In this document: piece by piece, positions 1 to 46,090 of the stretch
Layout of the letters: each line of letters opens with the position of its first letter
Position numbering within the stretch: the first letter of the stretch is position 1
From: a virus
Strand: one strand, 5' to 3'
DNA: 46,090 nt
IMG/VR virus record: IMGVR_UViG_3300045051_000281
Span: 1-46,090 of that record
Notes under the pieces: generated by a model
What the model saw: only the letters and a program-made list of their open reading frames with translations
Told to the model about the DNA's origin: nothing
Databases searched by the model: none
Program-made: the position numbers and the translations under genes

Positions 1-127
1 GGATTTGCTCTATCTGCCCATCGACCGAAGGTCCCCCGCCGATAATCACCGCCTGCTTGCCGGTTTCTCGACCACGCAATAGGCTAAAATCACGGGACGA
101 GGTACCTAAGACGGCTTGCACATTGGC
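1..127. repeat. Terminal direct repeat, left copy (circular contig overlap)
   Basis: Identical to bases 45964-46090. The two copies lie in one reading frame that is uninterrupted across the join, so the window is a closed circle cut at an arbitrary point. A 127-base overlap is a common assembler k-mer length. It is therefore more likely an assembly overlap of a circularly permuted or circular molecule than a biological terminal repeat. Confidence 0.95.
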
Positions 128-1048
128 GCGTTGCAGCTTGACGGGGAATTTGTTGTGTGTTTTCAGGTCAGGAATGCGCTGTGGATTGGCCCCGAGGACA
201 TCAAGGACGGTCTGTGCGGCGCGGGGAATATAGTGCGTGCGATCCATCCGATGCGCCGAGGGTTTCCAAAACGAGACAATCTGCTCCGTGAGCATGACCG
301 CTTGCCAGCCTTCGCATTGCATCACATAGTCGAGTGTGTCTGCCGTGAAGTGATAGGGGTGTGCCAGTTGAAACATCCCCGCAAGGGGCGTGCGATGAAT
401 CCCAGGCACGGCGACAAATAGCACTCCGTTCGGGGTGAGGAGTTGCCGCATCTGTGCCAGGAATGCAGGCAAATCCAGCGCATGTTCTAATACGTGATTG
501 AGGATCACCAAATCTGCGGTGATGCCTCGCTGAATCAAGGTATCCGGCGTGCCGACTTCAACCGGCAACCCGTGATCACGTCCCCATTGCACCGCTGTTG
601 GATCATGGTCCACGCCATAACAGCGCAGGCCTTGCTCGACAAACGGCGTCAGCAGAGCCCCTTTGCCGCAGCCAATATCAATCACCGAGGACGGCATCAC
701 GTCATAAAACTCGCAACAGGTCAGAATATCCTTCCCATCCTGCACGGCGTGGGACGGATCATGGTCGTCATCCGTGCGGTAGATGCGCCGATACTCATGC
801 TCGTAGAAGGACTGGTAGGACTCGGCGGTCATGCGGGGGCTGATATAGACCACCCCGCACAACGGGCACAGGTTTGTGGTGCAGGGCACGCCGTACCGAT
901 CCACGTCAGACACGATCTCCGGAGATGATGCCCCGCAATAGCAGGGCACCACCTCCTGAGGGTACGTTCCCGCGTCCTGTTTATCCCGCAGTTCGGCCAT
1001 CGCCATCAGGCTTTCGACCGTCTCTGCGTTCAGTTCACGGATGGCCAT
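1..1048 (-). CDS. Methyltransferase-DUF115 fusion protein, N-terminal part (continues at 45963)
   Basis: This is the first 349 codons of a 566-aa protein; the rest is at 45311-45963. The start ATG at 1048 overlaps the stop of the preceding gene (TAATG). Residues 36-64 hold a cysteine cluster (C36, C38, C56, C61, C64) like the zinc-binding segment found in front of some class I methyltransferases. A SAM-binding motif I (VIDIGCGKG) lies at 122-130, with an acidic strand end (YGVDHD) near 144 and NHVLEH at 184-189, typical of the Methyltransf_11/23 group. Near residue 333 the chain passes into a second Rossmann-type domain starting with VIIGGGPS. What is seen: both domains in one frame. Inference: it modifies a sugar or protein during virion assembly, since it sits between head and tail genes. 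The substrate is unknown. Confidence 0.85.
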   Translation of the reverse strand, partial: MAIRELNAETVESLMAMAELRDKQDAGTYPQEVVPCYCGASSPEIVSDVDRYGVPCTTNLCPLCGVVYISPRMTAESYQSFYEHEYRRIYRTDDDHDPSHAVQDGKDILTCCEFYDVMPSSVIDIGCGKGALLTPFVEQGLRCYGVDHDPTAVQWGRDHGLPVEVGTPDTLIQRGITADLVILNHVLEHALDLPAFLAQMRQLLTPNGVLFVAVPGIHRTPLAGMFQLAHPYHFTADTLDYVMQCEGWQAVMLTEQIVSFWKPSAHRMDRTHYIPRAAQTVLDVLGANPQRIPDLKTHNKFPVKLQRANVQAVLGTSSRDFSLLRGRETGKQAVIIGGGPSVDGQIEQI

Positions 1049-6836: not shown

Positions 6837-7019
6837 TTACCGGCGAGGCGGCGTAGAGGACGTATAGCTATCCACTCGCATAGCACGTTCAACACGTTCT
6901 GTCAACTCCTCAGGGGGATACAGCACCGTTTCGAGCATCCGCACGCACTCCGCCGTCGGTTTCAAGTGCCGATAGAGCTGCATCAAGAGATCTCGGCTCA
7001 CCATCACGGGCTGATCCAT
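6837..7019 (-). CDS. Small hypothetical protein between terminase and portal
   Basis: 60 aa. The ATG at 7019 overlaps the large terminase stop (TAATG), so it is probably translated by re-initiation. The sequence is helical in its first 50 residues (LLMQLYRHLKPTAECVRMLE), then Ser/Thr/Pro. It lies in the same frame as the portal gene, separated by one TAA and 30 codons. No family is recognised. Confidence 0.65.
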   Translation of the reverse strand: MDQPVMVSRDLLMQLYRHLKPTAECVRMLETVLYPPEELTERVERAMRVDSYTSSTPPRR

Positions 7020-8518
7020 TAGCCTACCCATGCGGAGACGTTACGGCGGAAGGTCTTGGGCACCATCCGCCTCGGTGATACGAATCGCGCGGCGAATTCA
7101 CTCAAACAGAGCGAATCGGCCTTGTTGGGAGAGGACAACCCACGGTCCCGTAATTCCTGTTTACTCTCAATTTTGATCTTTTCCTTCGCCGTTTTGCTGA
7201 AATTGTACTTGATGGTCGAGAGTTCCCCGATTAATTCCTCATCGTGCGGGATGCTGATGGTCCCAGCTTGGAAGCGTTCGCGCAAATTCCACCATAACTC
7301 ATCGCGCAAGCGCATAAAGCGTTCTGGATCGCCGGCGGATTCGGCTACGTTGATGGGCAAAATGGGAATCGGCGTCAAATCCTTGAGCATGTCATAGGTC
7401 CCGGCTCCCCAGCCTATGACATCAATAGCCGCCACCTGTGCATTCGTCTCGGTAATCTCTTTGAGGCACCAATAGCCCAATTCCTGCGTATTCACCCCGC
7501 TATAGGTATCGAGTCCACGGATAATCGGGCCTTGACGGCGTAAAATCACCGATTGATCGCCGCCCAATTCGCGTCCCACATCAATCCCCAGCACCACGGG
7601 GCAGCCATCTTCGACGATCAATTCACGCCCCACGGCTTTCATGACCCAATCCCAGGGAATCAGCGTATCCGGCGCGGCCAATGGCGGGAGGCCCAGCACA
7701 CGAATGCGGTAGGCGTTGCTGTCCTTCCCATATTTGCGTTCCATGCGCTCAATATGGGTCCGGTCTACCAGTTCGCTTTCTTCCGCGTTCCAGTGGCAGA
7801 CCATCCAATCGGCGCGGTTCTTCGTGAAGGATTCGTAGAAGAATCCATGCGACTGCGTAGGGTTCCCGATTTGCAGAACGAGGTTGCAAGGGCCCGTCAA
7901 TGAGCCTTCCAGCGGACGAAACACCGGATCAGGTACGCCAGAGCTTTCATCGACCACCACCAACAAATTATCGGCGTGGATACCCGCCAGCGTTTCGGCC
8001 TGTTCTTCCGGCGAGGCTTTGACGTTCACGGTACGCGGAATCGCAAACCATTCCCGCCCCGCTTCTTCTTTCCAATAGATCTTTTCCGCTTGCCACTTGA
8101 TGAGGTCTTGGAGGAACGACGACCGCCGCAGCCACAAATGCACTTCCGGCCAGAGGTTCGTCTTGAGCTGCGTCCCGACTGGGGCAATACAGGGGATCTT
8201 ACAAAAGGGCCGGCAGACCATGAAATGCAAGATGATCCATGAGGCCGTGGACGTTTTGCCGGTACCGTGTCCGCTATGGATACAGAGGCCGATCTTCTTC
8301 GCGTCAGCCTTTTCCTCTTGCGTCATCGGCACGCCCCGCGCCAGCTTGAGCTTGGCCGTGAGGAGCCGCCTATAGCACTCGAGGCCTTCCCGCTGCTGTT
8401 CGCTGATGCGCTTCCCTGGCGTGCCATCCAGGTCAAACACTTCACGGACAAACAATAGCGGGTCCAGCGTCCATGCGCGGATCTTATTGGAGGCCTGTTG
8501 CGAGGCAGACGCGGCCAC
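7019..8518 (-). CDS. terL: Terminase large subunit
   Basis: 499 aa. The DNA-packaging motor ATPase and headful or site-specific nuclease. It has Walker A GHGTGKTS at 83-90 and Walker B LLVVVDE at 185-191 with the catalytic Glu. In the C-terminal RNase H-like nuclease, the first Asp is in GIDVGRE (about 313), a second is in AAIDVIGWG (about 366), and a late acidic site is in NKADSLCLSEF (about 475). It begins with GTG directly after the stop of the upstream 56-aa gene. Together with the P22-like order, this suggests headful packaging, which would give circularly permuted ends and explain the circular assembly. Confidence 0.93.
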   Translation of the reverse strand: MAASASQQASNKIRAWTLDPLLFVREVFDLDGTPGKRISEQQREGLECYRRLLTAKLKLARGVPMTQEEKADAKKIGLCIHSGHGTGKTSTASWIILHFMVCRPFCKIPCIAPVGTQLKTNLWPEVHLWLRRSSFLQDLIKWQAEKIYWKEEAGREWFAIPRTVNVKASPEEQAETLAGIHADNLLVVVDESSGVPDPVFRPLEGSLTGPCNLVLQIGNPTQSHGFFYESFTKNRADWMVCHWNAEESELVDRTHIERMERKYGKDSNAYRIRVLGLPPLAAPDTLIPWDWVMKAVGRELIVEDGCPVVLGIDVGRELGGDQSVILRRQGPIIRGLDTYSGVNTQELGYWCLKEITETNAQVAAIDVIGWGAGTYDMLKDLTPIPILPINVAESAGDPERFMRLRDELWWNLRERFQAGTISIPHDEELIGELSTIKYNFSKTAKEKIKIESKQELRDRGLSSPNKADSLCLSEFAARFVSPRRMVPKTFRRNVSAWVG

Positions 8519-8689
8519 CTATTTCTCGGTCTTCCCTACGCCTTCATGCACGGCAATGGTGCCGTAGTGTTCAACCCCCGCGGTCGGCATGGTGAGGTGC
8601 ATACCGTCACCAGTGGAGAGGTGCGGATCATTGACGCTGGTGCTGCCGTTCGTTTCGACTTGCGTTTCGGCGCGTTCATCGGATTTCAT
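8519..8689 (-). CDS. Small hypothetical protein before terL
   Basis: 56 aa, hydrophilic and rich in Glu, Thr, Gly and His. The start overlaps the stop of the nucleotidyltransferase gene (ATGA) and its own stop abuts the GTG of terL. It has no membrane segment or recognised domain. It links the metabolic cassette to the packaging genes in one transcript. Confidence 0.6.
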   Translation of the reverse strand: MKSDERAETQVETNGSTSVNDPHLSTGDGMHLTMPTAGVEHYGTIAVHEGVGKTEK

Positions 8690-9375
8690 GCCATGACTCC
8701 TTGCGTAGTGAGATGCTGCACAACTTGCTGCGTGGTGAATTGGTTGTTGCCAAAATGGTCGTAAATGCCTTTAATGAAGGCATAATCGGCCTGCGTGTTG
8801 ACATCGAGGCGATAGTCCGCCTGCGGGAGTTGCAACAGTCCGCACTCTTCAAAGTATCGGTGAGGATGCTCACGCCAGACGGCATTCCCCTGCGTGCGTT
8901 CATCCAACCAGCGCAAGCGGCTCATGGAGAAGACTTCTGCGCCGATCCCATCAATCATCTTGCCGTCGCACTCAGCGGTGGTATTGGAATAGTAGATGAA
9001 GGGATCGCGGAGATAGTCGTCTACCGCCGCGTCGATATAGGCCGGATCAATGCAGGGATTGTCGCAGGGGATGCGGACGATGAGATCAGCCTCGGACCAT
9101 TTAGCGGCATCTAGATAGCGTCCGACCAAATCGTTCTCATCGGTCTTACCATATTCATTGCCCCATTCAATCGGCTGCGCATAGCATCTATTGACAAGAC
9201 GTTTAATGCGTTCATCTTTCACAGGATAAGTCACATACACGGCATCTAGAGTCTTCGCACGCTTCACCCGATCGATAATGTTCTGAAGCATCGGCTTGCC
9301 CGATAACGGCATCATGACTTTTCCCGGTAACCGTGTACTGCCCAGGCGAGCCTGCAAAATCGCGACGACGCGCAT
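8686..9375 (-). CDS. SpsF-like sugar nucleotidyltransferase (cytidylyltransferase family)
   Basis: 229 aa. The N-terminus has the nucleotide-binding signature of the acylneuraminate cytidylyltransferase/SpsF superfamily: ILQARLGSTRLPGKV, then LSGKPMLQ. Asp-rich sites follow (RIPCDNPCIDP near 125), as does the YRLDVNTQADYAFIK segment near 195, typical of CMP-sugar synthetases. Known family role: transfer of CMP or a similar nucleotide to an acidic sugar. With a NeuB-like synthase four kilobases upstream in the same operon, the likely substrate is a nonulosonic or related keto-sugar acid, but the exact sugar cannot be told. It may supply a donor for the DUF115 fusion protein. Confidence 0.83.
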   Translation of the reverse strand: MRVVAILQARLGSTRLPGKVMMPLSGKPMLQNIIDRVKRAKTLDAVYVTYPVKDERIKRLVNRCYAQPIEWGNEYGKTDENDLVGRYLDAAKWSEADLIVRIPCDNPCIDPAYIDAAVDDYLRDPFIYYSNTTAECDGKMIDGIGAEVFSMSRLRWLDERTQGNAVWREHPHRYFEECGLLQLPQADYRLDVNTQADYAFIKGIYDHFGNNQFTTQQVVQHLTTQGVMA

Positions 9376-9732
9376 TTATAGGTTCCCCTCAGACCCGTGC
9401 TTGTCCATGCCTGTCTGCGTGCTGTTGGTGGTGATGATCCTGGTGGCCTTGACATAGCGCAGCGTCGCGTTCTTGAGTGACGCGCCGGTGATATCCGCGC
9501 CATGCAAGAGCGAGCCGGTGAGATTCACGCCGTCCATTTTGGCATTGGTGAAAGTGCCGCCAGACAGATTCAATTCCGTGGGATCGCCGTTCTTGCCGAG
9601 TGCCTGCAAATCCGCATTGGCCAGACTGCGGCCTGCTCGGACTTCCGCTTCCACCGCCCTCGAAAACGAATCTCCGGTCATGGTGCGAATGAACACCCCT
9701 GTATTTGCATTGTTCAGATTGAATGTCGCCAT
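9376..9732 (-). CDS. Pentapeptide-repeat protein
   Basis: 118 aa. Residues about 50-95 show A(D/N)LXX-type repeats (LSGGTFTNAKMDGVNLTGS, then LLHGADITGASLKNATL), enough for one to two turns of a right-handed quadrilateral helix. The N-terminal 50 residues are not repeats. Pentapeptide proteins bind partners such as gyrase, but this short one gives no clue to its target. It abuts the nucleotidyltransferase gene. Confidence 0.72.
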   Translation of the reverse strand: MATFNLNNANTGVFIRTMTGDSFSRAVEAEVRAGRSLANADLQALGKNGDPTELNLSGGTFTNAKMDGVNLTGSLLHGADITGASLKNATLRYVKATRIITTNSTQTGMDKHGSEGNL

Positions 9733-9756
9733 GGTGCCCTCCTACTGCGTGGGTTC

Positions 9757-9918
9757 TTACTCCCATGCTCCCATCTTGATAAATTTCCCTGACTCATCAA
9801 ATTCAAACGAGGTGAAGAACCCAATATAGCCCCCCGCCACATCAATGGATGTCTCCGTGACTTCATAGGTCACGCCCCATTTTGTGAGCAAGGCCATCAA
9901 TTCTTCTTTATCTGTCAT
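9757..9918 (-). CDS. Small conserved-type phage protein
   Basis: 53 aa. The ATG at 9918 overlaps the TGA of the radical SAM gene (ATGA), which fixes the start. It is beta-rich with an ending (FEFDESGKFIKMGAWE) of a kind often seen in small phage proteins of unknown role. Translation is coupled to the radical SAM enzyme, so a functional link is possible but not shown. Confidence 0.65.
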   Translation of the reverse strand: MTDKEELMALLTKWGVTYEVTETSIDVAGGYIGFFTSFEFDESGKFIKMGAWE

Positions 9919-10694
9919 GATGCGGGCACTCCGTAATAAGTACACGACGCACAGCGCGGCGAGGCCAGATCCCGCCGCCCCTGCACATGCGCGTCCATCC
10001 AGTTCCGGCGCGTCTCCCCGTTCCAAATTTCATCCAACGTGTGCTCATAGAGACTCCCCAGATAGCCCGCGTCCGTGTCATCGAACCGCACGCACTGGTA
10101 CACCTTCCCATCCCAGGCAATCGCCGGTTTCGAGAGAAAATCCGTACAGACGCCATGCTCCGGCATCATCGGCACCGACCGCACATATTTCCCATTCGTG
10201 GCGGTATGGAGCCGACGGCGCAAGATCGGCAGGCCCAACGCCTCATAACGGGAGACATTGCACTCGCCCACGACTTTAATCAGCACCCGTGGCAGCGCAT
10301 CACCCTTCTCCGCCAGAAATTCTCTGACCGCCTGAAACTGTATCTCGGCATCAGGGTCCGGCGAGAACACGGAGACGGTGATGGTTTCACAGCGTTCGAT
10401 CAAATCCTCGGCCTGCTCCATCAGCGTTTCGCCATGGGTCACGATGGACCGTAGACAGCCGTCAAACACATCCAACGCTTCACGCAACTGGGGATAGGCC
10501 AGCGGATCGCCGTCACGGTGGAACTGCACCACAATCCCGTCGGGAATCTGATGACGGATATCCTTGACCAGCGCCAATGGCATATCGCCCATTTTCAGAT
10601 CAGGACTCGCCTGGTGAAAACAGAAGGCGCACAGCGTCTTGCGGTGACAGCGTGAGGTGAGTTCGACGTTCAGTTGGCTAAGACCGTGGAGCAT
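9915..10694 (-). CDS. Radical SAM/SPASM-type protein with CX5CX2C motif
   Basis: 259 aa. An N-terminal strand (LNVELTSRC) leads into C16, C22 and C25, a CX5CX2C cluster where the usual radical SAM spacing is CX3CX2C. The middle has FHRDGDPLAYPQL and SVFSPD segments that fit the partial TIM barrel. The C-terminus has a SPASM-like set of cysteines: one near residue 183 (GVCTDF), one in KVYQCVRF, then CASC at the end, after the typical LGSLYEHTLDEIWNGE linker. Known role of such proteins: radical modification of peptides or small molecules using an auxiliary Fe-S cluster. The substrate is unknown; the adjacent sugar genes make a sugar derivative or a partner peptide possible. Confidence 0.8.
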   Translation of the reverse strand: MLHGLSQLNVELTSRCHRKTLCAFCFHQASPDLKMGDMPLALVKDIRHQIPDGIVVQFHRDGDPLAYPQLREALDVFDGCLRSIVTHGETLMEQAEDLIERCETITVSVFSPDPDAEIQFQAVREFLAEKGDALPRVLIKVVGECNVSRYEALGLPILRRRLHTATNGKYVRSVPMMPEHGVCTDFLSKPAIAWDGKVYQCVRFDDTDAGYLGSLYEHTLDEIWNGETRRNWMDAHVQGRRDLASPRCASCTYYGVPAS

Positions 10695-10839
10695 ATCTTT
10701 TCTGGATGGTTTGTATTAGTTGCTCTGTTTCCCACTCGTCGAACTTCTCAAGAATATTTGCCAGCATTTTTTCACGATCTCGCTTGGCCTTATCAAAATG
10801 CAGAACTTTCGGAATTATGCTCACGCCAAATTTATTCAT
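10678..10839 (-). CDS. Small charged helical protein
   Basis: 53 aa from ATG 10839, which lies within the last codons of the aminotransferase gene; it ends 17 bp inside the radical SAM gene. It is strongly helical and charged (DKAKRDREKMLANILEKFDE). It could be a partner or substrate of the radical SAM enzyme, or simply a small regulator. Nothing in the sequence decides this. Confidence 0.6.
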   Translation of the reverse strand: MNKFGVSIIPKVLHFDKAKRDREKMLANILEKFDEWETEQLIQTIQKRYAPRS

Positions 10840-11743
10840 GCTGCGAGTCCCATTGGGCAATCTGTCCTTGGATATCTACGCCGACCATTGCTGACCATTT
10901 CGCTAATGTCTGCTTGAACACGGGGCCTGGGGTGCCGTCGCCTATCGGCTTGCCGTCCAGTGAGACGACCGGGACCATGCAGAAGGGTGTGCCGGTGAGC
11001 CACATCTCTTCAATCTGTGAATGATCTGGCGAATAGACACCAAGTGAGCATTGTTCAGAATTGATTAATTCTTTGACAGTCTCCATTGAAATCCCTGGCA
11101 AACAATTCTCCTCAATGCTCATAATCCGGCTGTTCCATTTCCACTTGAACAGAATGTTCGCGCCAGGGGCTTCGGTATAACACTCATAATCATCATTTCC
11201 ATCCGTCATCAGCGGCCACGTTCCAGCCGGGGCTTGCATCTGCGCTAAGTGAAAATGCAGGCGGCTGCGATGCTTGGCGGACGACGGGATGCACGCATCC
11301 GGCACTTGATGCACCTTCGATGTGACGCAGTGCACGCCATCGGTGAAATACTTACTGAATCCCTTGACGGTATAGCGGAGCGGGAAGTCGGCAATGTAGA
11401 GAAACGGGTGCGGGATGACGCCGGCGAGATCCTTGTACATGGGCGCACAGCCGGGACTAGCCACGATCAGAAGACGATGCTCCTCCCCGTCTCCGTGGTC
11501 GTTCATATTTGACACGAGTTCACAGATCGTTTCGATTTCGGCAATCGTCTGCTCGCAAGGAATCTGAAGCGACTGGCACGAATCCATGAGCCGCATGAGA
11601 TGTTCCCGCAGCTTGAAATGATCGCCGTTAAAGCTGCGAGTCATCTCAAACGCTGCCGCCGCTTGCATGATCGATAGGTCGTAGATTGATAGCTTGGCCT
11701 CAGCCTCGGGCACGAATTGGCCGTTTAAATAGACGGTTCTCAT
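10832..11743 (-). CDS. Class IV PLP-dependent aminotransferase
   Basis: 303 aa. The start at 11743 is set by an ATGA overlap with the 38-aa membrane protein gene. The N-terminus (VYLNGQFVPEAEAKLSIYDL) is the typical opening of branched-chain or D-amino-acid aminotransferases. The PLP-linking lysine is probably K157 in IPSSAKHRSRL. The ECYTEAPGANILFKWK segment matches the usual E-xx-xxN element after it, and LTGTPFCMVPV matches the late cofactor loop. Family role: transfer of an amino group between amino and keto acids. In this cassette it could aminate a keto-sugar or keto acid intermediate; this is inference. Confidence 0.82.
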   Translation of the reverse strand: MRTVYLNGQFVPEAEAKLSIYDLSIMQAAAAFEMTRSFNGDHFKLREHLMRLMDSCQSLQIPCEQTIAEIETICELVSNMNDHGDGEEHRLLIVASPGCAPMYKDLAGVIPHPFLYIADFPLRYTVKGFSKYFTDGVHCVTSKVHQVPDACIPSSAKHRSRLHFHLAQMQAPAGTWPLMTDGNDDYECYTEAPGANILFKWKWNSRIMSIEENCLPGISMETVKELINSEQCSLGVYSPDHSQIEEMWLTGTPFCMVPVVSLDGKPIGDGTPGPVFKQTLAKWSAMVGVDIQGQIAQWDSQHE

Positions 11744-11856
11744 TTCTTTCGACTCCGTGAATGCGGAGAACTCAGTCCGATCAACAAGAACATCGTGAAT
11801 GCGTAGGTCGCTCCCACCGTGAGAACAATGACCATCACCCATTCCAACACGCTCAT
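11740..11856 (-). CDS. Single-span membrane peptide, 38 aa
   Basis: This short ORF has ATGA overlaps at both ends, with the NeuB-like gene before it and the aminotransferase after it, which strongly supports translation. One hydrophobic segment (VMVIVLTVGATYAFTMFLLIG) is followed by a basic tail (SRSRKK), predicting an N-out, C-in orientation. It may anchor the sugar enzymes at the membrane; that is inference. Confidence 0.72.
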   Translation of the reverse strand: MSVLEWVMVIVLTVGATYAFTMFLLIGLSSPHSRSRKK

Positions 11857-12686
11857 GCCGTCACCTTCCGCAGCTTCGCCTTCGCCACCTCTTCCGACGG
11901 CCAGACGCGCTTCACCCCATCGCCCTTGGCCCGTTCAAACGTGCGAATCTCCTCGACCAGTTTCCCAAACGCCGCGGGTTCCAACGAGGCCGCTTGATCG
12001 CTGCCCCACATCGCCCGATCTAAGGTCAGATGCGCTTCCACCACTTCGGCGCCGTAGCACACCGCCATCAGGCAGGGCCAGGGCGAGACGGTATGCGAGG
12101 AATAGCCGACCGGCAGGTCATAGCGGTCCTTGAACGACTGAATGCACGCCAGGTTCAATTCATCCAGCGGCGAAGGGTAGCTCGAATGACAATGTAGCAC
12201 CGCCGCAATCTTCTCCGGCCACAGCGTCTCGACCGCCGCATCACATTCCTCCAACGTACTCATGCCGGTTGAGAGATAAATCGGGATGCCCGTGTTGCGG
12301 TAGGCCCGCAGCACTTCATGATCCGTCACTAACGCCGACGGCACCTTCAACCAGGGCACGCCAAACGACGCCAGAAAATGCACACTCGCCACATCCCACG
12401 CCGACCCGCTCCACGCGATCCCCACCGACCGGCAGTAGCGATCAATCTCCGTATAGTCATCAAACGAGAATTCCAGCCCGCGCTTGAGATCCCCATTCGT
12501 GCCCCCAAACACCGACTCCCGCGGCTTCGCTAATTCCTCGGCGCTGTACACCGTCTCCACCGTGCGCTTCTGAAACTTCACCGCGTCCGCCCCGCAGGCC
12601 TTCGCCGCATCAATCAACCGCTTCGCCACTTCCAGACTGCCCTGATGATTGATCCCGATCTCCGCGATGATGTAGACTGCTTTCAT
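11853..12686 (-). CDS. NeuB-like nonulosonic acid (sialic acid) synthase without SAF domain
   Basis: 277 aa, start ATG 12686 behind GGAGG. Family motifs appear in order: IAEIGINHQG at the N-terminus, ADAVKFQ, LKVPSA, YLSTGMSTLEE, CHSSYPSP, GYSSHTV, and AHLTLDRAMWGSDQAASLEP. These are the PEP/sugar and metal-binding elements of NeuB/LegI/PseI barrels, which condense PEP with an N-acyl hexosamine to make a nine-carbon acid. Usual family members are about 340-350 aa and end in an SAF (antifreeze-like) domain that completes the partner active site. Here the chain stops after the barrel, so that domain is absent. It heads the metabolic cassette. Confidence 0.88.
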   Translation of the reverse strand: MKAVYIIAEIGINHQGSLEVAKRLIDAAKACGADAVKFQKRTVETVYSAEELAKPRESVFGGTNGDLKRGLEFSFDDYTEIDRYCRSVGIAWSGSAWDVASVHFLASFGVPWLKVPSALVTDHEVLRAYRNTGIPIYLSTGMSTLEECDAAVETLWPEKIAAVLHCHSSYPSPLDELNLACIQSFKDRYDLPVGYSSHTVSPWPCLMAVCYGAEVVEAHLTLDRAMWGSDQAASLEPAAFGKLVEEIRTFERAKGDGVKRVWPSEEVAKAKLRKVTA

Positions 12687-12702: not shown

Positions 12703-13350
12703 TTAGAGTAACCGTCCCGCAAATTCCATCGGCGTCTTGGCCCCCTTCTTCAAATTGCAGGACGGACAGGCGAAACAGATATTCTCCGGCCCGTTCGATC
12801 CCCCGAGTGCTAAGGGCCAGATATGATCCCGATGCGGGTGCGCCCCATACGCTTGCTGGCACCAATAGCATTTCCCCTTCTGCCGCTGCTTCACGATGGA
12901 CAAAATCTGATGCGCTCGCGAATTCGGCTTATGGGAACGGCCCTTCATCCTCCTCTGATGATTCTGTAACTTGACCGCTTCAGGATTCCTTAACTTCCAC
13001 ATCCGACGATAGATCGCATCCCGATTCGGTAACGCCAGCTTCCAGCCCTTCAACCGCTTCACGAGACTCCGAACGGCCTTGCGTGCGTCACTCACCATTC
13101 GTTTCGCATCGGCTCTTATCTTGCGTTCTTGAATCTTTGGACTGTTCAGATACGATCGCTTGGAACGCTCTTTCGTTTTCCTCTTCTGTTCTTCTTCCGA
13201 TACGGCAATGGCTGACAAATATTCTTCCCTTGGCCTGATCCCCTGGCTACGAGCCCGATCAATTGCCTGCTGTCGCAATCGGTCAGCATGACGCTCCCTA
13301 AAGCGTCTACTCGCCTCTCTATTGCGTATTCGCCTTTCGTCGGTACTCAT
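12703..13350 (-). CDS. HNH endonuclease (homing type)
   Basis: 215 aa. Two CxxC pairs (CYWC and CPSC) frame the HNH core, in which HRDHIWPLALGGSNGPENICFA supplies the metal-binding His and Asn. The N-terminal 140 residues are very basic with repeated Arg/Lys helices, suitable for DNA binding. Free-standing HNH genes of this kind beside terminase genes are either homing endonucleases or packaging cofactors that cut cos DNA. With a P22-like scheme, homing is the more likely reading. Confidence 0.85.
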   Translation of the reverse strand: MSTDERRIRNREASRRFRERHADRLRQQAIDRARSQGIRPREEYLSAIAVSEEEQKRKTKERSKRSYLNSPKIQERKIRADAKRMVSDARKAVRSLVKRLKGWKLALPNRDAIYRRMWKLRNPEAVKLQNHQRRMKGRSHKPNSRAHQILSIVKQRQKGKCYWCQQAYGAHPHRDHIWPLALGGSNGPENICFACPSCNLKKGAKTPMEFAGRLL

Positions 13351-13572: not shown

Positions 13573-14001
13573 TTACGAGGCACTTCCACTCTTGTCCTTC
13601 TTGAACAGTTCTGCATCGGCTTGCTGCACGATCTTCCCTAACACACTGATATTGCTAGTAGATTGTCCTGTTTCAAGCCGGCGTTTATCGACAATAATGC
13701 CGTAACTGACCGCACGATCCCGGTAATTCATCTTTTGAATGGCTGTATCGTCAGCGAGTGAAGCGAGCAACTTAAACTCGACGGCATCGATCAGGCCGGC
13801 TCTGTTGTGTTGGAAGGTCGGCAGGTCATCGGCTTCGCTGGTGAGGTCGTGGAAACGCTGAAGGGCTTGCTGGACGCCTTGTTTACAAAACGGCTGCTCT
13901 GGATCGAGCAGCACCCCGATCTGTTCATAGGTGCAGCCTTTGAGGCGAAGTTCAAGAGCTTTCTTGAGGTCTATGGAGCGGGCTAGTGCCGTCTCAGCCA
14001 T
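13573..14001 (-). CDS. terS: Terminase small subunit candidate
   Basis: 142 aa. The N-terminal helix-turn-helix (LELRLKGCTYEQIGVLLDPE, then CKQGVQQALQRFHDL) is followed by a helical middle and the segment NYRDRAVSYGIIVDKRRLETGQST. That segment resembles the RDxxxxxGILxDKxxLxxG stretch common in phage small terminases. In P22 TerS precedes TerL; here about 5 kb of cassette lies between them. It would recognise the packaging site and feed DNA to TerL. The assignment rests on the HTH, the motif and position. Confidence 0.68.
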   Translation of the reverse strand: MAETALARSIDLKKALELRLKGCTYEQIGVLLDPEQPFCKQGVQQALQRFHDLTSEADDLPTFQHNRAGLIDAVEFKLLASLADDTAIQKMNYRDRAVSYGIIVDKRRLETGQSTSNISVLGKIVQQADAELFKKDKSGSAS

Positions 14002-22692: not shown

Positions 22693-22929
22693 ATGAGTTC
22701 ACCCCCTTCCATTGTGGATTATAAAACCTACCTCTTCACTTACAACTTTGATGGAGCAAGTTGGCAGCTTCCCATCAAAGCTAAGACGCCCGAAGAGGCA
22801 CGGGCGCGTCTCAGTACTGCGATCTATGCTGAATATACGGGAGAATTGGTTGCTTCCATTCCTCTTCCTTCTTCTATTCTCTCACGGGTTACACATTTTC
22901 TTATCAAGATTTTTCGTCTAAGGAATTAA
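22693..22929 (+). CDS. Transposon cargo protein, 78 aa
   Basis: The segment TYLFTYNFDGASWQLPIKAK, then TPEEARARLSTAIYAEYTGEL, resembles small proteins of proteobacteria with a strand-helix unit and unknown role. The start codon lies two bases from the DUF1508 start on the other strand, with no ribosome site visible. The start could therefore be an internal codon or the mRNA leaderless. The 3' end overlaps the transposase 3' end by 12 bp. Confidence 0.55.
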   Translation: MSSPPSIVDYKTYLFTYNFDGASWQLPIKAKTPEEARARLSTAIYAEYTGELVASIPLPSSILSRVTHFLIKIFRLRN

Positions 22930-23748
22930 CCCAACAATTTCTTCCAAGCTCCACACATGATCGGATACTCCTGCTTGCATGGCAGGTGTAACTCTCAATG
23001 TAGAATGAATCCGAGCGAAGTTGTAATACATAAAATAGAGCGCCAGCGCATGCCGGTGATTCTCGATCTTCTTGCTATGTGCGTTCGTCAGCCTAGTAAA
23101 ACGCCTCATATCCATCCGTATCTGTAAATTCATCCGCTCGGCATAACTGGTAGAGACGTGGGCGTTATCGGGGTTGCCCGTGATCTTGTTTTTCTTCGCG
23201 CCACAACATTGCGCAGGGCTGTAGCGAGTCGTCACGCCTTCTTGCGGAGGGGCCGCATAAATCTTTTCGAGCATGGCATAATCCACTTCAGATCCGAATG
23301 CCCCTTCAACTGCTCTCAAGTATGCCTTGTGCCCGTCCGTAGTGAGTTGCACGCGATGGAGTAACCGTGTGGCGAGATCGTCGATAAACTTCACGGCATA
23401 GGGCACGCTCCGCTCGCCTACGAGCCATGAGATCATCAGCTTGCTGTCCGCGCAAATCGCCGTCCAGGTCCAGACGCTACCAAAACCAAACTTGCCTTTC
23501 ATTTCCTCAGAGAGATTCTTATCCTTCGCAAAACAGAATGACCAAATCTCATCGGCCTGAACTCGCTTACATGGCAGATTTCGCAACTTCTCATCTTGAT
23601 ACTTCGCGCAAGCCGTACCGAGATCAGCAAGCAGCTTCAGGATCGTCGGCTTCGATACGCCAGTCATGCGAACTACGCTGTTGACGCTGGCACCTTCGAC
23701 CAGGGCCGCTACCACTTGAATCCGCTTCTGAGTCGTTAGTCTGTTCAT
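22918..23748 (-). CDS. IS1-family transposase (single ORF)
   Basis: 276 aa. N-terminal helix-turn-helix (VNSVVRMTGVSKPTILKLLA). The DDE site is D66 in QADEIW, D138 in LTTDGHKAYL and E204 in SYAERMNLQIR, followed by the FTRLTNAHSKKIENH helix common in IS1 InsB-type proteins. It is one continuous ORF, not the InsA-InsB frameshift of classical IS1, as in the single-ORF IS1 subgroups. It cuts and joins the 20-bp ends. Its promoter (TTGACA, 16 bp, TATAGT at 23826-23799) lies in the shared divergent region. Confidence 0.92.
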   Translation of the reverse strand: MNRLTTQKRIQVVAALVEGASVNSVVRMTGVSKPTILKLLADLGTACAKYQDEKLRNLPCKRVQADEIWSFCFAKDKNLSEEMKGKFGFGSVWTWTAICADSKLMISWLVGERSVPYAVKFIDDLATRLLHRVQLTTDGHKAYLRAVEGAFGSEVDYAMLEKIYAAPPQEGVTTRYSPAQCCGAKKNKITGNPDNAHVSTSYAERMNLQIRMDMRRFTRLTNAHSKKIENHRHALALYFMYYNFARIHSTLRVTPAMQAGVSDHVWSLEEIVGLIP

Positions 23749-23845: not shown

Positions 23846-23870
23846 ATACGGTTAGACAATGGAGGTATAT

Positions 23871-25115
23871 ATGGATGCGGAATTGACAAAGGATGAACAG
23901 ATTAAATTGGGTATCAATGTTGGCTATGTATTTAGGCCTTCAGCGCCAATCAATGAAAAAGACTTATTTGCCGGCCGCACAGATCAAGTGCGCCGAGTGA
24001 TCGACGCAATTTTTCAAGAAGGTCAGCACGTAGTCTTGTACGGTGAAAGAGGGGTAGGGAAAACCTCACTCGCCAATGTGCTGTCAGATTACGTTGAAGA
24101 AGTTGGCAAGACGATCTTAGCCCCGCATGTTACGTGTGATCGAACCGATGATTTCTCAAAACTATGGAGAAAGATATTCGGGGAAATTTATGTAGTTAAA
24201 ACAGAACGAGTCCCAGGATTTATAGCCCCTGAAACTTCTACTACCGTCTCGATGGGACAAAATCTTCCTATTAATCTAACGCCAAACGATGTGCGCATTC
24301 ACTTAGCCAATCTGGGAAGGCAGTGTACCCTAATTATTATCATAGACGAATTTGATAGGTTGAAAGGGAAAGAGATTAGAGAGCTATTCGCTGACACCAT
24401 CAAGACTCTTTCTGACCACGCGGTACCAGTTACATTAATTCTTGTCGGTGTTGCAGAATCAGTCCACGAATTAATAGCGCATCATCAATCTATCGAACGC
24501 GCACTTATTCAGATTCATATGCCAAGGATGAAACCCCAAGAGCTTGAAGAAATCGTTACAAAAGGGCTTTCCAGAGTTGGGATGACTATAGACCAAGATG
24601 CTGTGAGAAGGCTGGCATCGCTCTCGAAAGGCTTACCACATTACACGCATCTAGTTGGGCTGCATTCGTCCAGAATAGCTATTGATGCTGGGAAAAGACA
24701 CATTTCTTTGGAGGATGTTTCTGCTGGTATCAAGCGCGCGCTAGATGATGCACAGCAAAGCATCCGAGAGGCTTATCATAAAGCCACCATGAGCACACGG
24801 AAGGAAAGTCTTTATCCTTCTGTTCTTCTGGCTTGCGCTATGGCAATACCTGATGAATTTGGATGTTTTGCGGCAGGAGATCTCCGGGAACCACTAAATG
24901 CGATTACCGGAAAGCCATATGCGATTCCGAATTATGCACGCCACCTAAAAGATCTTTGTGAGGACTCAAGAGGGCCTATATTGAAGATGAAAGGCACCAA
25001 GCACAGATTGCGCTTTCATTTTGTGGACCCATTAATGCAGCCGTTTATTTTGATGAAGGGATATGCTGGAAAAGAAATATCTTTTGATTTATTAGACCGC
25101 CCGACGCTTTACTGA
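23871..25115 (+). CDS. ORC/CDC6-type AAA ATPase (transposon cargo)
   Basis: 414 aa from ATG 23871, chosen because GGAGG lies five bases before it. Walker A is GERGVGKTS at 58-66 and Walker B LIIIIDEFD at 154-162. Other AAA features are the DLFAGRTDQV box before Walker A and an arginine-rich lid region near residue 210. The C-terminal 120 residues (after SIREAYHKATMSTRKESLYP) look like a winged-helix module, as in Orc1/Cdc6 and related single-protein ATPases. Its job is not known. Related genes occur as single-protein ATPases next to mobile elements and defence loci, so an anti-phage or transposition-control role is possible. A+T-richer than the phage genes. Confidence 0.8.
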   Translation: MDAELTKDEQIKLGINVGYVFRPSAPINEKDLFAGRTDQVRRVIDAIFQEGQHVVLYGERGVGKTSLANVLSDYVEEVGKTILAPHVTCDRTDDFSKLWRKIFGEIYVVKTERVPGFIAPETSTTVSMGQNLPINLTPNDVRIHLANLGRQCTLIIIIDEFDRLKGKEIRELFADTIKTLSDHAVPVTLILVGVAESVHELIAHHQSIERALIQIHMPRMKPQELEEIVTKGLSRVGMTIDQDAVRRLASLSKGLPHYTHLVGLHSSRIAIDAGKRHISLEDVSAGIKRALDDAQQSIREAYHKATMSTRKESLYPSVLLACAMAIPDEFGCFAAGDLREPLNAITGKPYAIPNYARHLKDLCEDSRGPILKMKGTKHRLRFHFVDPLMQPFILMKGYAGKEISFDLLDRPTLY

Positions 25116-27025: not shown

Positions 27026-27121
27026 GGGAGCCCTGACGGGGAATCTGCGTATGTAGTTGCCCTAGGTAGTATTTCGCACTCGCCATGACTATAGTTGCTC
27101 CATTATTTTCGTGGAGGATTT

Positions 27122-28042
27122 ATGTCACTGCACAGCACGCCCTGTATTACACCCCCAGTTACGATCAAGCATCTTGTCGATCTGTTCATGGGACTCCATG
27201 TGCCGCTGTTGAAGGACCCGCGTCCGCTGAAGTGCCGCATGTTGAAGTACTTCCCTCCTCTCTATGATCGCCCGATTGACCAACTGACCGTCATTGAAAT
27301 CACGCGATGGCGGAATAGTATCAAGGCGACTTCGGCGGTGCAAGCAATGGCGTCCTTAAAGGATTTGCGCCATCTCTACAACAAGGCGATTGAATGGGAC
27401 CTGTACGCGGGGGCGAACCTCGCCGCACGCATCAAGAATGAGCGGCCCCCCATGCGGAAAACGTACATTCGCGAACATGAGATGCCACAGGCCGTGCGGA
27501 CCATCTTTGCCCAACCGCTCCAAACGCGGCTGCATTTCTATGGTTCGTTGATCCTGGCGTGCCGCCCGATTGAGCTACAGAACCAGCACAAGGCCGATGT
27601 GCGGGTATGGCGAGAGGGGACCGCCTGGCAAGGCTTATGGACCAAGCCCAAAGGCACCACGAAAACCTCACGTGAGCACACCATCCCCTTGCCGCCGTTG
27701 CTCGCTGAGATGTATGCGCTGTACATCCCTACGCTGGCCCCTGATGAATTGTGGATGTTTCCAGGGCGCAACGGTCGCCCCCTGTCCAAAGAGTTCTGGT
27801 TTGCCAAGTGGGATAAGATACGCACTGAGGCCAATCTGCCGCATGTCTGGTGCTACGACTTGCGGCGGACTGGCAGCACTTGGGCCAACGATACGTCCGG
27901 CAATCTCTCGGCGGTGAGTAAGGGGATGCTGGACCACACCACCTACCAAGCCACCGATCATTATGTGCAGGTCATGGATGGGACGACACGGGCGATGTTA
28001 GGGAAGCATGAGCAGAGGATTATCAATTGCTCCACACATTAA
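27122..28042 (+). CDS. int: Tyrosine integrase
   Basis: 306 aa; ATG 27122 chosen because GGAGG lies five bases before it. A SAM-like N-terminal core-binding half is followed by the catalytic half: Arg in ACRPIEL (about 148), Lys in WTKPKGTTK (about 175), CYDLRRTGS (about 244-252, the usual H replaced by Y), H in LDHTTY (about 272) and nucleophile Tyr in TDHYVQ (about 281). The box I motif begins with C where G is usual. It integrates the phage DNA into the host chromosome. No excisionase is recognised; one of the small regulators could serve. Confidence 0.9.
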   Translation: MSLHSTPCITPPVTIKHLVDLFMGLHVPLLKDPRPLKCRMLKYFPPLYDRPIDQLTVIEITRWRNSIKATSAVQAMASLKDLRHLYNKAIEWDLYAGANLAARIKNERPPMRKTYIREHEMPQAVRTIFAQPLQTRLHFYGSLILACRPIELQNQHKADVRVWREGTAWQGLWTKPKGTTKTSREHTIPLPPLLAEMYALYIPTLAPDELWMFPGRNGRPLSKEFWFAKWDKIRTEANLPHVWCYDLRRTGSTWANDTSGNLSAVSKGMLDHTTYQATDHYVQVMDGTTRAMLGKHEQRIINCSTH

Positions 28043-29369: not shown

Positions 29370-29833
29370 GCCTCTGACTCCTTCAGAACCACATGCGGAT
29401 CTTCTACGTCCGCATCCATGTTGTAGAAGTTCAGCCGGCCGATCTTCCCCACGAACCGCTCCGGATGCTCCCGCGCCCATTTCGGCCGGGCGTCCCCCTG
29501 CAACGAGTCGTCGTAGTAGCTGTCGATTCCCTTGAGCGGTGAGTTGTACATCCCGGTCACCACGCGCTCGGCAATGTTCAGGCATTCTTCAAATACATTG
29601 TCATCGGCCTTCGGCCAGGTTGTGAGCTGCTTATCGTTGGGATCGGTCAGACTGGAATACTGCCACTTCTTCGTGAGCACGCTGATCCAGTCATTCCCCC
29701 ACCAGCCCGGATGATCGAGGCGGTTCTTGACCGTATGTGCCACGGCAATCCTCGCCTCATAGGGCTCGCCCCGCGCTTCGCGCCAGAGCGTCAGCGCCAG
29801 GAGCGTGATTTCGTAATAGGTCCAAGCCTTCAT
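29366..29833 (-). CDS. Endolysin, SleB-type cell-wall hydrolase
   Basis: 155 aa; ATG 29833 overlaps the stop of the adhesin gene (TAATG). The segment LTLWREARGEPYEARIAVAHTVKNR is the hallmark of the Hydrolase_2/SleB family, whose catalytic Glu is in the RGE. Later a PERFVGKIGRLNFYN segment fits the family core. It has no signal peptide, so it relies on the holin. It cuts peptidoglycan for release of progeny. Confidence 0.85.
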   Translation of the reverse strand: MKAWTYYEITLLALTLWREARGEPYEARIAVAHTVKNRLDHPGWWGNDWISVLTKKWQYSSLTDPNDKQLTTWPKADDNVFEECLNIAERVVTGMYNSPLKGIDSYYDDSLQGDARPKWAREHPERFVGKIGRLNFYNMDADVEDPHVVLKESEA

Positions 29834-34449: not shown

Positions 34450-34459
34450 AGATGTTCCC

Positions 34460-35158
34460 TCACGCATTGATAACATAGGTGACATATCCTTGAAGAACCA
34501 CGTTCCCACCGGTTGGAAAATCTGTAATTGCTAAGATGGCCTGAGGTTGACTCTCTCCTGTGGCGTAGAGGTATGAGACCAATGACCCGCCAGAGACGAT
34601 TGGCACCACGTTGGTATAGCCAGCTTTTGTCAGACCGCTAAACAGGATTGCTCCGCTGACCCACGGGCTCAATGACGATGATGAGGTAAAGGGTAAATTG
34701 TTGATCGTGATGAGTCCCGATGCCGTCGTATAGGTAAAGGAGGAGGTGATGATGGAAAACCACGCCGTTAAGGTATTGCCGGCCAAATCGTAATAGCCTG
34801 AATTGGAGGTATAGGACACGGCTAAATCGCCAGGCGTGGTACAGGAGATGGTGGGCGTCCATTGAGCAGGCGTGGAAGAAATGGGGTCGAGGAGTTGCAC
34901 CTGATCCCAGGTCGCCAACGTCGTCGCCCCGTCTGACGTTTTCACCACGATCTTGTACAGCCCATCGAAATAGGCTGAGGCAATCCCGTTAATGTCTGCC
35001 TGCAAAGGCTGTGCGGCCGTGGTGATTTTAGTGCGATCCGTCCAGCACGCTTTGGTGGTTGTGGTGCCGACGACATAGTGATAGATCAACGCGCTCGTGG
35101 CGAGACTGCCCCCATTGAAGAAGGGGCCAAATTCTTTGAAGAGTGCGGTAGCGGCCAT
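34460..35158 (-). CDS. Tail fibre-like protein with virion-attachment N-domain, 232 aa
   Basis: Residues 1-85 (FGPFFNGGSLATSALIYHYV, then DGLYKIVVKTSDGATTLATWDQV) match the N-domain of the 564-aa protein upstream. They are the part likely bound to the tail. The rest is Ser/Thr/Gly-rich beta. It may be a short fibre or a receptor-binding tip. It overlaps nothing; the ATG has no strong ribosome site. Confidence 0.72.
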   Translation of the reverse strand: MAATALFKEFGPFFNGGSLATSALIYHYVVGTTTTKACWTDRTKITTAAQPLQADINGIASAYFDGLYKIVVKTSDGATTLATWDQVQLLDPISSTPAQWTPTISCTTPGDLAVSYTSNSGYYDLAGNTLTAWFSIITSSFTYTTASGLITINNLPFTSSSSLSPWVSGAILFSGLTKAGYTNVVPIVSGGSLVSYLYATGESQPQAILAITDFPTGGNVVLQGYVTYVINA

Positions 35159-44189: not shown

Positions 44190-44728
44190 TAGTTCACCGT
44201 CGAATTAGCGGTCAACGGGCGATAGCGCATAATGTGCATCCAGGTGCCGGTGGTCGAACCCGTCCCAATGACCAACTTGATGGTGCCGTCCTTCACATCA
44301 ATGTAGTTCGCGACGTTCGTCCCCAACTGCACACCGCCGGCGGAGGCGGCGACAATGACCGGCGCGGTACTCAACGCGGTGGGAGCCAGGCGCACCGTCG
44401 TCCCTGCGGTCGCGCTCGCCAGTGAGGCGGAGGCTCCACTAAACGTCGTGGCGGTTCCTACCGTGGGGACGGATTGCCATTGCATCGTGGAGGCCGTGAC
44501 ATCGTTGGCCGTGACGCAAATCGAGACGAGATCAATAATCTGAATGGGTCCACCAGACACGGTGAACACGGTGTTCCCGTTCACCATCGTTGAGGTCGTG
44601 CTCTGAACGGCACGGTCACTGGCCATGAATGAGGCATCGCCAGCCGCCGAGGTGAGTGCGCCAGCCGCCCATGACCAGGACGGCGCGAGGAACACCATGA
44701 GCAAGGCCAGTATCTTAGTAGTGCACAT
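44189..44728 (-). CDS. Exported protein in tail operon, 179 aa
   Basis: ATG 44728 has AGGAG nine bases upstream, and the resulting start is a signal peptide (TKILALLMVFLAPSWSWAAG). An upstream in-frame ATG would give 53 unlikely residues. The mature part is beta-rich (VFTVSGGPIQIIDLVSICVT). It overlaps the previous gene by 14 bp. Role unknown; either a secreted protein within the virion operon or a structural protein with a hydrophobic start. Confidence 0.68.
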   Translation of the reverse strand: MCTTKILALLMVFLAPSWSWAAGALTSAAGDASFMASDRAVQSTTSTMVNGNTVFTVSGGPIQIIDLVSICVTANDVTASTMQWQSVPTVGTATTFSGASASLASATAGTTVRLAPTALSTAPVIVAASAGGVQLGTNVANYIDVKDGTIKLVIGTGSTTGTWMHIMRYRPLTANSTVN

Positions 44729-45314
44729 AGACGGCTCCTGTGGCTGAGGTTCCAGTCGTGTTGGTGGTGATGATGTAGTAGTACTTGTAGTTCGCGGTGA
44801 ACACCGGACAGGCATCTTGCGTGCGGGTGGTGCCGGAGAGCGTGATGGTACACAGCAAGATCCCGTTGGCCGCGTCGTTGTCCACATCGCCGTAGATCGC
44901 CTGCGTCTGTGTCACGGCTCCGGTTCCCGCGACTTGGCCATAGATACTCTTGCTGCCGGTCGGGAGCGCAAAGGCCGTTGTCGTGGCGTTGGCGGTTGCG
45001 GCTGAGCCCATCGTCACTGTGGCTTGACGCACCGCCCCGCCACTGGTTTGCAGCAGGCTATTCGTTTGATCTTCTCCACTAATCAACGTGGCCAGCGTCA
45101 CTTTTGCCGCGTCATTGGTTTCGTCCATGGCCGAATCACCGAGCGGTGTGACCAGCGAGGTCCATTGCGCCCCTGCCGTATTACAGACGTTCGGCACAGC
45201 CTGCCCGGCGATATAGACGGGAGCCGTGGTATAGACCTTACATTCCGCCTGCACGGTCTGCGGGGACCAGGCCCACAGCGCCAGGCATCCAATCAACAGG
45301 AGTCTCTTCATCAT
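44715..45314 (-). CDS. Exported protein in tail operon, 199 aa
   Basis: ATG 45314 overlaps the stop of the DUF115 fusion gene (ATGA). A clear signal peptide (KRLLLIGCLALWAWSPQTVQA) ends at A-E. The mature part is Thr/Ala-rich and beta (TVTMGSAATANATTTAFALP; KYYYIITTNTTGTSATGAVY) with four cysteines at the start and middle. With the next gene it forms a pair of exported proteins between the modification gene and the tail adaptor. Role unknown. Confidence 0.7.
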   Translation of the reverse strand: MMKRLLLIGCLALWAWSPQTVQAECKVYTTAPVYIAGQAVPNVCNTAGAQWTSLVTPLGDSAMDETNDAAKVTLATLISGEDQTNSLLQTSGGAVRQATVTMGSAATANATTTAFALPTGSKSIYGQVAGTGAVTQTQAIYGDVDNDAANGILLCTITLSGTTRTQDACPVFTANYKYYYIITTNTTGTSATGAVYVHY

Positions 45315-46090
45315 GGTCGTATCCCTTTCTCTGTCACGTTCAATCCCATCGCGGTGAGCCAGTCCGACCCCATAGCCATGACTAAACTATCGCCGTAGAT
45401 CGTCACGGCGTTGAGAAACCCCATCTGCTTGCCGGTGTCTATTAAAGGGAAGAATTGCTGAGCGAATGAGAGATACGGGCCGGTCGTCGTAAAGTCCTGC
45501 CCATCAACCTCAATCTCAAGGCATTGCGTCGCTTCCCCTACGCCCGTAATCCCCTTGGCGTAGTGCGCCCCCGTGATATGGCAATCGAACCCGAAGATAT
45601 GCAGCGCATCCATGCCCAGCGCCATCGCAATCGTCATGCAGGACAGCGTGACGCTGCCGCCCGCATTCAGGACCGTTTGCTTATCGGATACCGCTGATTG
45701 AAAGAGCGTTGGGAGATCCAGCGACCCTGACGGGCAGTTGTACGTATAGACCTGGGTATGCCCAGACAGCGCATCCATCACCGCCTGGCCGCATTGTGTG
45801 GCCGTGATGCAGACGGTTTCAGGATGCACATGATGGAGCGATGCTGGCACATCTTCAGAGGCGTCGAGGACCGAGAGATAGTCAGGGATAATCCCATGCG
45901 CATGACACCAGGACGCCATGCGCTCAATCGCCACCACGCGATGACCTTGGCCAATGAGATGATGGATTTGCTCTATCTGCCCATCGACCGAAGGTCCCCC
46001 GCCGATAATCACCGCCTGCTTGCCGGTTTCTCGACCACGCAATAGGCTAAAATCACGGGACGAGGTACCTAAGACGGCTTGCACATTGGC
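45311..46090 (-). CDS. Methyltransferase-DUF115 fusion protein, C-terminal part (continues at 1048)
   Basis: C-terminal part of the 566-aa protein that starts at 1048 on the other side of the join. The VIIGGGPSVDG motif, then YLSVLDASEDVPASL, ITATQCG, VTLSCMTIAMALGMDALHIF and GFDCHITGAHYAKG are the Rossmann-type core of DUF115/MptE-like proteins. That domain is the glycosyltransferase core of Maf proteins that attach nonulosonic acids to flagellin, and also the 6-hydroxymethylpterin kinase core of archaeal MptE. In a phage with NeuB- and SpsF-like genes, transfer of an activated sugar to a tail protein is a fair hypothesis, not shown. Confidence 0.82.
   Translation of the reverse strand, partial: ANVQAVLGTSSRDFSLLRGRETGKQAVIIGGGPSVDGQIEQIHHLIGQGHRVVAIERMASWCHAHGIIPDYLSVLDASEDVPASLHHVHPETVCITATQCGQAVMDALSGHTQVYTYNCPSGSLDLPTLFQSAVSDKQTVLNAGGSVTLSCMTIAMALGMDALHIFGFDCHITGAHYAKGITGVGEATQCLEIEVDGQDFTTTGPYLSFAQQFFPLIDTGKQMGFLNAVTIYGDSLVMAMGSDWLTAMGLNVTEKGIRP
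45964..46090. repeat. Terminal direct repeat, right copy (circular contig overlap)
   Basis: Same 127 bases as 1-127. The unique circle therefore ends at 45963. Confidence 0.95.

Follow-up and report, generated by a model that had tools for sequence, protein, structure and literature searches.

The virus record IMGVR_UViG_3300045051_000281 of IMG/VR, whose full 46,090 bp (55.6% G+C) we refer to as the window, carries most of its genes on the minus strand. Among them is a cassette of sugar-related genes, inserted as part of a minus-strand operon between the gene for a probable terminase small subunit (TerS; 13573..14001, 142 aa) and that for the terminase large subunit (TerL; 7019..8518), which marks the insertion site. 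Its core consists of genes for a NeuB-family ulosonic-acid synthase (11853..12686), a class IV pyridoxal phosphate (PLP) aminotransferase (10832..11743), a radical S-adenosylmethionine (SAM) protein (9915..10694) and an SpsF-like cytidine monophosphate (CMP)-sugar cytidylyltransferase (8686..9375), in this order. A preliminary description of the locus had listed these genes, together with a 38-aa membrane peptide and a pentapeptide-repeat protein, between the two terminase genes; all were recovered there on the minus strand, and Pfam confirmed the families.

The NeuB-family protein (277 aa) is a TIM barrel only. It matches PF03102 over the full length of the profile (1-241; E=1.3e-70), and the Pfam scan of the 277-aa protein gave no SAF (antifreeze-like) domain match. 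All six active-site positions checked (E9, K37, K114, H198, H219 and D230) are conserved with Neisseria meningitidis NeuB, in which we take the catalytic and metal-binding residues to be Glu25, Lys53, Lys129, His215, His236 and Asp247, and are invariant in 12 viral homologues. The scores stay under the NCBIfam equivalog cut-offs, at 249 against 400 bits for N-acetylneuraminate synthase (NnaB) and 177 against 340 bits for PseI. Thus, of the earlier proposal that this enzyme makes a nine-carbon sugar acid, the family assignment holds, and nine carbons are only one possibility, given these scores and the missing SAF domain. The cytidylyltransferase (229 aa; PF02348, CTP_transf_3, 1.3e-18) has 6oew as its closest solved structure (9.9e-37), followed by KdsB, and residues R10, R15 and K19 of its N-terminal nucleotide-binding region are invariant. 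Profile searches thus bore out the homology of both proteins, with the catalytic residues in place.

The aminotransferase (303 aa; PF01063, Aminotran_4, 5.5e-23) has the branched-chain aminotransferase fold, and its closest solved structures are branched-chain transaminases (5cm0, 5e25 and 5mqz; 4e-54). Its invariant K157 and E191 would be the catalytic lysine and the glutamate at N1 of PLP, roles assigned from the family. The radical SAM protein (259 aa), with a CX5CX2C motif and one SPASM/twitch-type auxiliary cluster, matches the SPASM profile at 1.4e-9 and Radical_SAM weakly (0.015). BtrN is its best solved structure by profile (1.2e-14) and also the top Foldseek match (1.4e-10) of its AlphaFold model (predicted local distance difference test, pLDDT, 87), with the SpeY dehydrogenase among the further matches; both BtrN and SpeY are sugar or cyclitol dehydrogenases. 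Across 28 sequences C16, C22, C25, C183, C201, C248 and C251 are invariant, comprising the [4Fe-4S] cysteines and the four of a twitch cluster, and we consider the protein a probable alcohol dehydrogenase. The motif reads CX5CX2C in the clade of the window and CX3CX2C in two other sequences (L021 and L034).

A candidate transferase for the resulting sugar is split by the ends of the record. The first and last 127 bp of the window are identical (1-127 and 45964-46090, an exact direct repeat), and a near-identical contig reads through the terminal junction; because of this overlap and the spanning contig, the window is one complete phage genome, circularly closed or terminally redundant. Across the junction runs a minus-strand gene for a 566-aa fusion protein, uninterrupted in the near-identical contig (L283:1240-2940). 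Its N-terminal part (1..1048) holds a methyltransferase domain (PF13489, 2.3e-17, residues 118-249) and its C-terminal part (45311..46090) an MptE-like/Maf_flag10 domain (PF01973, 4.5e-18; 1.5e-17 in the joined protein) that stops at about residue 480 of 566. The protein matches the Maf structure 5mu5 at E=1.7e-4 by sequence, and its AlphaFold model (pLDDT 87) does so at 1e-12 in Foldseek. Whole-model template modelling (TM) scores are low, which would follow from a different placement of the domains, and we rely on the domain-level match. In Maf enzymes the central domain is sialyltransferase-like and the N-terminal domain Rossmann-like, PF01973 being the Maf_flag10 domain; these enzymes O-glycosylate serine or threonine from CMP-ulosonates, including 3-deoxy-D-manno-octulosonic acid (KDO) and N-acetylneuraminic acid (Neu5Ac) (PMC11339370). 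By its domain content, the fusion protein is probably a CMP-ulosonate transferase. Its gene lies directly after the head genes, between these and the head-closure genes.

Roughly 18 further IMG/VR contigs carry the four-gene core, so that the same gene block is found in other phages, as the preliminary description had suggested looking for. It sits between TerS and TerL in L001, and the order NeuB, aminotransferase, radical SAM protein, SpsF is kept at this position in L002-L005 (L004 is cut before TerS), whose TerL proteins share 80 to 45% identity with that of the window. A second order, NeuB-SpsF-aminotransferase-radical SAM, is found downstream of TerL (L076, L080-L082, L087, L089 and L202), and a third, NeuB-aminotransferase-radical SAM, before TerL (L099 and L110). 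In comparison with L002, the ratio of nonsynonymous to synonymous substitution rates (dN/dS) is 0.06-0.16 for the four core genes (0.14 for NeuB), which are thus under purifying selection; the value for the pentapeptide gene was set aside because its homologue had been read in the wrong frame. Relative to L003 and L005, NeuB and the aminotransferase retain 62-68% identity, above the 46-47% of TerL. Among known phages, tblastn against 50,697 records gave three matches for NeuB (28-43% identity) and none for the radical SAM protein, and in the two larger of these three records no aminotransferase or radical SAM gene lies near NeuB.

The synthase and the transferase domain are tightly associated. 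The PF01973 search covered two sets: 49 records linked to the cassette or to NeuB, and 41 of the TerL family that have no cassette next to TerL. Of the latter, four pass the cut-off, and exactly these four also hold NeuB; a fifth has a weak match, sub-threshold, where its contig ends. When the count is restricted to TerL-family contigs of 20 kb or more, the MptE domain is present in 14/15 with NeuB and 0/13 without it (Fisher p=7.5e-7), counts that include related contigs and so are not independent. In three of the four records (L294-L296) the methyltransferase-MptE fusion, NeuB and SpsF genes are consecutive, with no aminotransferase or radical SAM gene nearby; the fourth is cut at its contig end. 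Because of this arrangement, we read NeuB, SpsF and the Maf-like transferase as the predicted minimal module and the aminotransferase and radical SAM genes as putative tailoring genes. The linkage of NeuB with the MptE domain and the gene adjacency in L294-L296 argue that the transferase would use the sugar made by the cassette.

Homologues in cells point to what the tailoring enzymes may do. Members of the aminotransferase subfamily occur in bacteria and archaea of many phyla, nearly always with genes for NeuB and a cytidylyltransferase no more than a few kb away. Its usual cellular neighbours are short-chain dehydrogenases/reductases (SDRs) and a xylose-isomerase-like barrel protein, and often a KdsC-like phosphatase and a GmhA-like isomerase. 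In one cellular locus (L152:4127-6082), NeuB is fused to SAF and the xylose-isomerase-like barrel in a protein of 651 aa that adjoins SpsF and the aminotransferase. An SDR gene lies beside the aminotransferase in 0/32 viral loci with the radical SAM gene and in 10/13 without it (p=9e-8), and in cells in 0/7 and 53/73, respectively (p=2.8e-4), with the reservation that many of the viral rows are TerL-family relatives and that small sets underlie the profiles. The xylose-isomerase-like barrel follows the same pattern in cells (0/7 with radical SAM, 50/73 without); in viruses its matches fell below the threshold used (139-185 bits) and are confined to loci without radical SAM. The simplest reading is that the radical SAM protein and the SDR would be alternative routes to the ketone aminated by the aminotransferase, the radical SAM protein being assigned as ketone-maker because of this exclusion and its likeness to BtrN by profile and fold. 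In a tree of 124 aminotransferase sequences, a quick tree with long branches, TerL-family phages form two groups and the other viral sequences are scattered among those of cells, the label 'other virus' requiring 11 changes among cell sequences; this is consistent with repeated transfer of the gene between cells and phages.

Combined, these results lead us to propose that both a CMP-activated ulosonic-sugar pathway and its transferase are encoded by the phage, the transferase acting on a protein that probably belongs to the virion, a reading to which we assign a probability of about 55%. An unusual, acidic amino-sugar is very probably what the four core enzymes make and activate. The BtrN-like radical SAM enzyme would act on a sugar or sugar acid taken from the host, oxidising one of its hydroxyl groups to a ketone, with SAM replacing nicotinamide adenine dinucleotide (NAD); the aminotransferase would turn this ketone into an amine; and the SAF-less NeuB would condense an aldose with phosphoenolpyruvate to give a 3-deoxy-2-ulosonic acid, although these three steps may occur in a different order. 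SpsF would then link the ulosonic acid to CMP, and the methyltransferase-Maf-like protein would move the sugar, possibly methylated as well, from CMP to a serine or threonine of a cytoplasmic protein, probably a virion protein from the surrounding late genes. The substrates, the order of steps, the product and the acceptor are those that we infer. The preliminary description had envisaged a CMP-activated sugar that alters the virion or the host surface, and the presence of a transferase statistically tied to NeuB lends support to that view.

Several observations weigh against this proposal. The fold matches of the fusion protein are led by the sugar C-methyltransferases MtmC, KijD1 and TcaB9, at values similar to Maf, and its solved relatives reach no more than about 14% identity; consequently, the assignment of transfer activity rests on PF01973 and on the association with NeuB, for which related contigs were counted. 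MptE was also looked for near the aminotransferase in cellular loci and none was found, so cells would use another transferase. Furthermore, the SPASM/twitch group of radical SAM proteins has epimerases among its members, and EpeE is one of the fold matches of the protein described here. Finally, the usual substrates of class IV aminotransferases are 2-keto acids, and C2 could therefore be the position of the amine instead.

As for the acceptor, a virion protein is most likely on grounds of economy, because the cassette is translationally tied to the packaging genes, the transferase gene lies between head and head-closure genes, and Maf acts on cytoplasmic protein. Alternatively, the same sugar could be destined for flagellin, pilin, S-layer or polysaccharide on the surface of the host, where it would mask receptors or bring about lysogenic conversion. 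An integrase gene (27095-28042, plus strand; phrog_1, 3.8e-26) indicates that the phage is probably temperate, flagellin is a known target of Maf enzymes (PMC11339370), and related prophages reside in Nitrospirota genomes. In a survey that covered Nitrospirota, TerL relatives were present in 4 of 296 genomes, and one of these genomes holds, in a 4.16-Mb contig, a related prophage with TerL, portal, major head protein and head closure (L308, L309), which suggests Nitrospirota as a possible host lineage. However, this prophage has no cassette, which speaks against a host-surface role and from which it follows that the cassette is accessory within the phage lineage. Moreover, the genes are translationally coupled within the packaging and head operon, where late expression is expected, and no flippase or polysaccharide glycosyltransferase was present among the window proteins scanned. 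We therefore regard a host-surface target as unlikely. Ser/Thr-rich proteins with signal-peptide-like starts occur in the structural module on the minus strand (44715-45314, 44189-44887 and 29833-34509) and are candidate acceptors, the first two being encoded downstream of the transferase gene; proteins of this type are encoded by the Nitrospirota prophage L308 as well.

Other readings concern the chemistry or the purpose of the cassette. If the aminotransferase acted on the NeuB product at its 2-keto group, the outcome would be a long polyhydroxy amino acid, or else a precursor of some other compound, and the cytidylyltransferase would serve another sugar. Both the classical use of 2-keto acids by class IV enzymes and the branched-chain transaminases as nearest solved relatives fit such a step, which would nevertheless block CMP linkage, and in L294-L296 NeuB, SpsF and MptE occur without the aminotransferase and radical SAM genes, placing CMP activation of the NeuB product in the shared core; we judge this quite improbable. 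Still less probable, in our view, is that the cassette is passive cargo, that is, auxiliary genes of host polysaccharide synthesis with no dedicated phage-protein target: the aminotransferase does seem to have moved repeatedly between cells and viruses, as its 11 label changes imply, but purifying selection on the core, the terminase-adjacent position conserved in diverged phages and the exclusive pairing with an MptE-like gene are at odds with this. That the genes make a DNA hypermodification instead of a protein glycan, to which their position between the terminase genes and the use of PLP or radical SAM enzymes in some phage DNA modifications might point, is very improbable, since the cassette lacks a nucleotide-modifying enzyme, the linked transferase is Maf-like and not a DNA glycosyltransferase, and the cellular homologues lie in sugar-biosynthesis clusters.

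The proposed protein glycosylation pathway shares parts with several known systems. The CMP-nonulosonic (sialic, legionaminic or pseudaminic) acid and Maf systems of flagellin in Campylobacter and Clostridium likewise combine a NeuB synthase, a CMP-sugar cytidylyltransferase and a Maf_flag10/MptE transferase. In contrast to them, the genes here are phage-encoded, NeuB lacks the SAF domain, no LegB/PseB-type genes for a UDP-sugar front end were seen in the cassette, a class IV aminotransferase and a radical SAM protein take the place of DegT-type aminotransferases, and the transferase is fused to a methyltransferase that retains its SAM motif, with no indication of a flagellin acceptor. SpsE and SpsF of the Bacillus spore-coat polysaccharide also pair a NeuB-like synthase with an SpsF-type cytidylyltransferase, whereas SpsE (1vli) has 385 aa against 277 in the phage protein, and associations with an aminotransferase, radical SAM protein and MptE are not known for SpsE/SpsF. 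The logic proposed here is that of the Kdo8N pathway of Shewanella (KdnB/KdnA/KdsB), in which a hydroxyl is oxidised and transaminated and the 8-amino ulosonic acid CMP-activated, although that pathway employs an iron-type alcohol dehydrogenase (KdnB) and the DegT-type KdnA where the phage has a radical SAM protein and a class IV aminotransferase. With BtrN and SpeY of aminocyclitol antibiotics, the radical SAM protein shares the fold, the single auxiliary twitch cluster and a predicted alcohol-to-ketone step before an aminotransferase, at only about 18% structural-alignment identity and with CX5CX2C in the window clade instead of CX3CX2C. The NeuB, CMP-sugar synthetase and Maf components are themselves known, but in the literature searched we did not find this gene set described, nor a phage that employs these components alongside a BtrN-like radical SAM protein and a class IV aminotransferase, with a methyltransferase-Maf fusion.

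The remaining genes of the operon are variable. A 38-aa membrane peptide (11740..11856) overlaps its neighbours by 4 nt on each side and, apart from the copy in the window itself, is matched solely in L001/L036, a near-identical contig. Two 53-aa open reading frames (ORFs) were absent from the preliminary gene list: one (10678..10839) overlaps both neighbours and is matched only in the near-identical contig, and the other (9757..9918) shares an ATGA overlap with the radical SAM gene. The pentapeptide-repeat gene (9376..9732; PF00805, 6.9e-8) is present beyond the window phage only in L002, and a 56-aa ORF between SpsF and TerL (8519..8689) is conserved in L001 and L002. An HNH gene (12703-13350) lies between NeuB and the probable TerS, all of these being on the minus strand; TerS gave no match in the PHROG search, and a similar gene occupies its position in L001-L003 and L005, while TerL matches phrog_2 (6.2e-33) and phrog_5902 (4.2e-43). 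Among L002-L005 the HNH gene, the 38-aa peptide, the 53-aa ORFs and the pentapeptide gene are variably present. We rejected the HNH, pentapeptide and 38-aa peptide genes as pathway parts, as they are not in diverged relatives, and the latter two, counted as cassette members in the preliminary description, thus fall outside the conserved pathway. The stop-start overlaps that it reported at most junctions were evident, with ATGA at four of them (NeuB/38-aa peptide, peptide/aminotransferase, radical SAM/53-aa ORF and SpsF/56-aa ORF) and gaps of 0 nt at two (pentapeptide/SpsF and 56-aa ORF/TerL); junctions abut or overlap by 4-17 nt throughout, except for gaps of 16 nt before NeuB and 24 nt before the pentapeptide gene. 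Elsewhere in the window we noted a 276-aa protein (22918-23748, minus strand) that resembles an IS1-type transposase by eye, with no Pfam or PHROG match, and on the opposite strand an AAA/STAND ATPase (23859-25115, plus; phrog_6841).

In some phages, putative glycosyltransferases are presumed to have the phage's own capsid as their target. If our proposal is true, a phage with its own CMP-sugar synthesis and protein transferase would be nearly self-sufficient in this respect, and a specific, unusual mass would be predicted on virion proteins. We advance more tentatively the fuller picture of a phage protein-glycosylation system, widespread in uncultured phages, in which the phage would make its own new amino-ulosonic sugar, with a radical SAM dehydrogenase replacing a nicotinamide enzyme, and a methyltransferase-Maf fusion would place it on virion proteins. 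The mutual exclusion of radical SAM and SDR genes leads to a concrete enzymological prediction, and the pathway would offer a function open to testing for a bacterial aminotransferase/NeuB sugar cluster that occurs in many phyla and was matched to no described pathway. Standard phage annotation overlooks the four core proteins because none of them has a significant match in PHROGs v4. The set of core enzymes and transferase recurs in many uncultured phages, which points to phages of this kind coating a protein with sugar, most probably one of their own particle.

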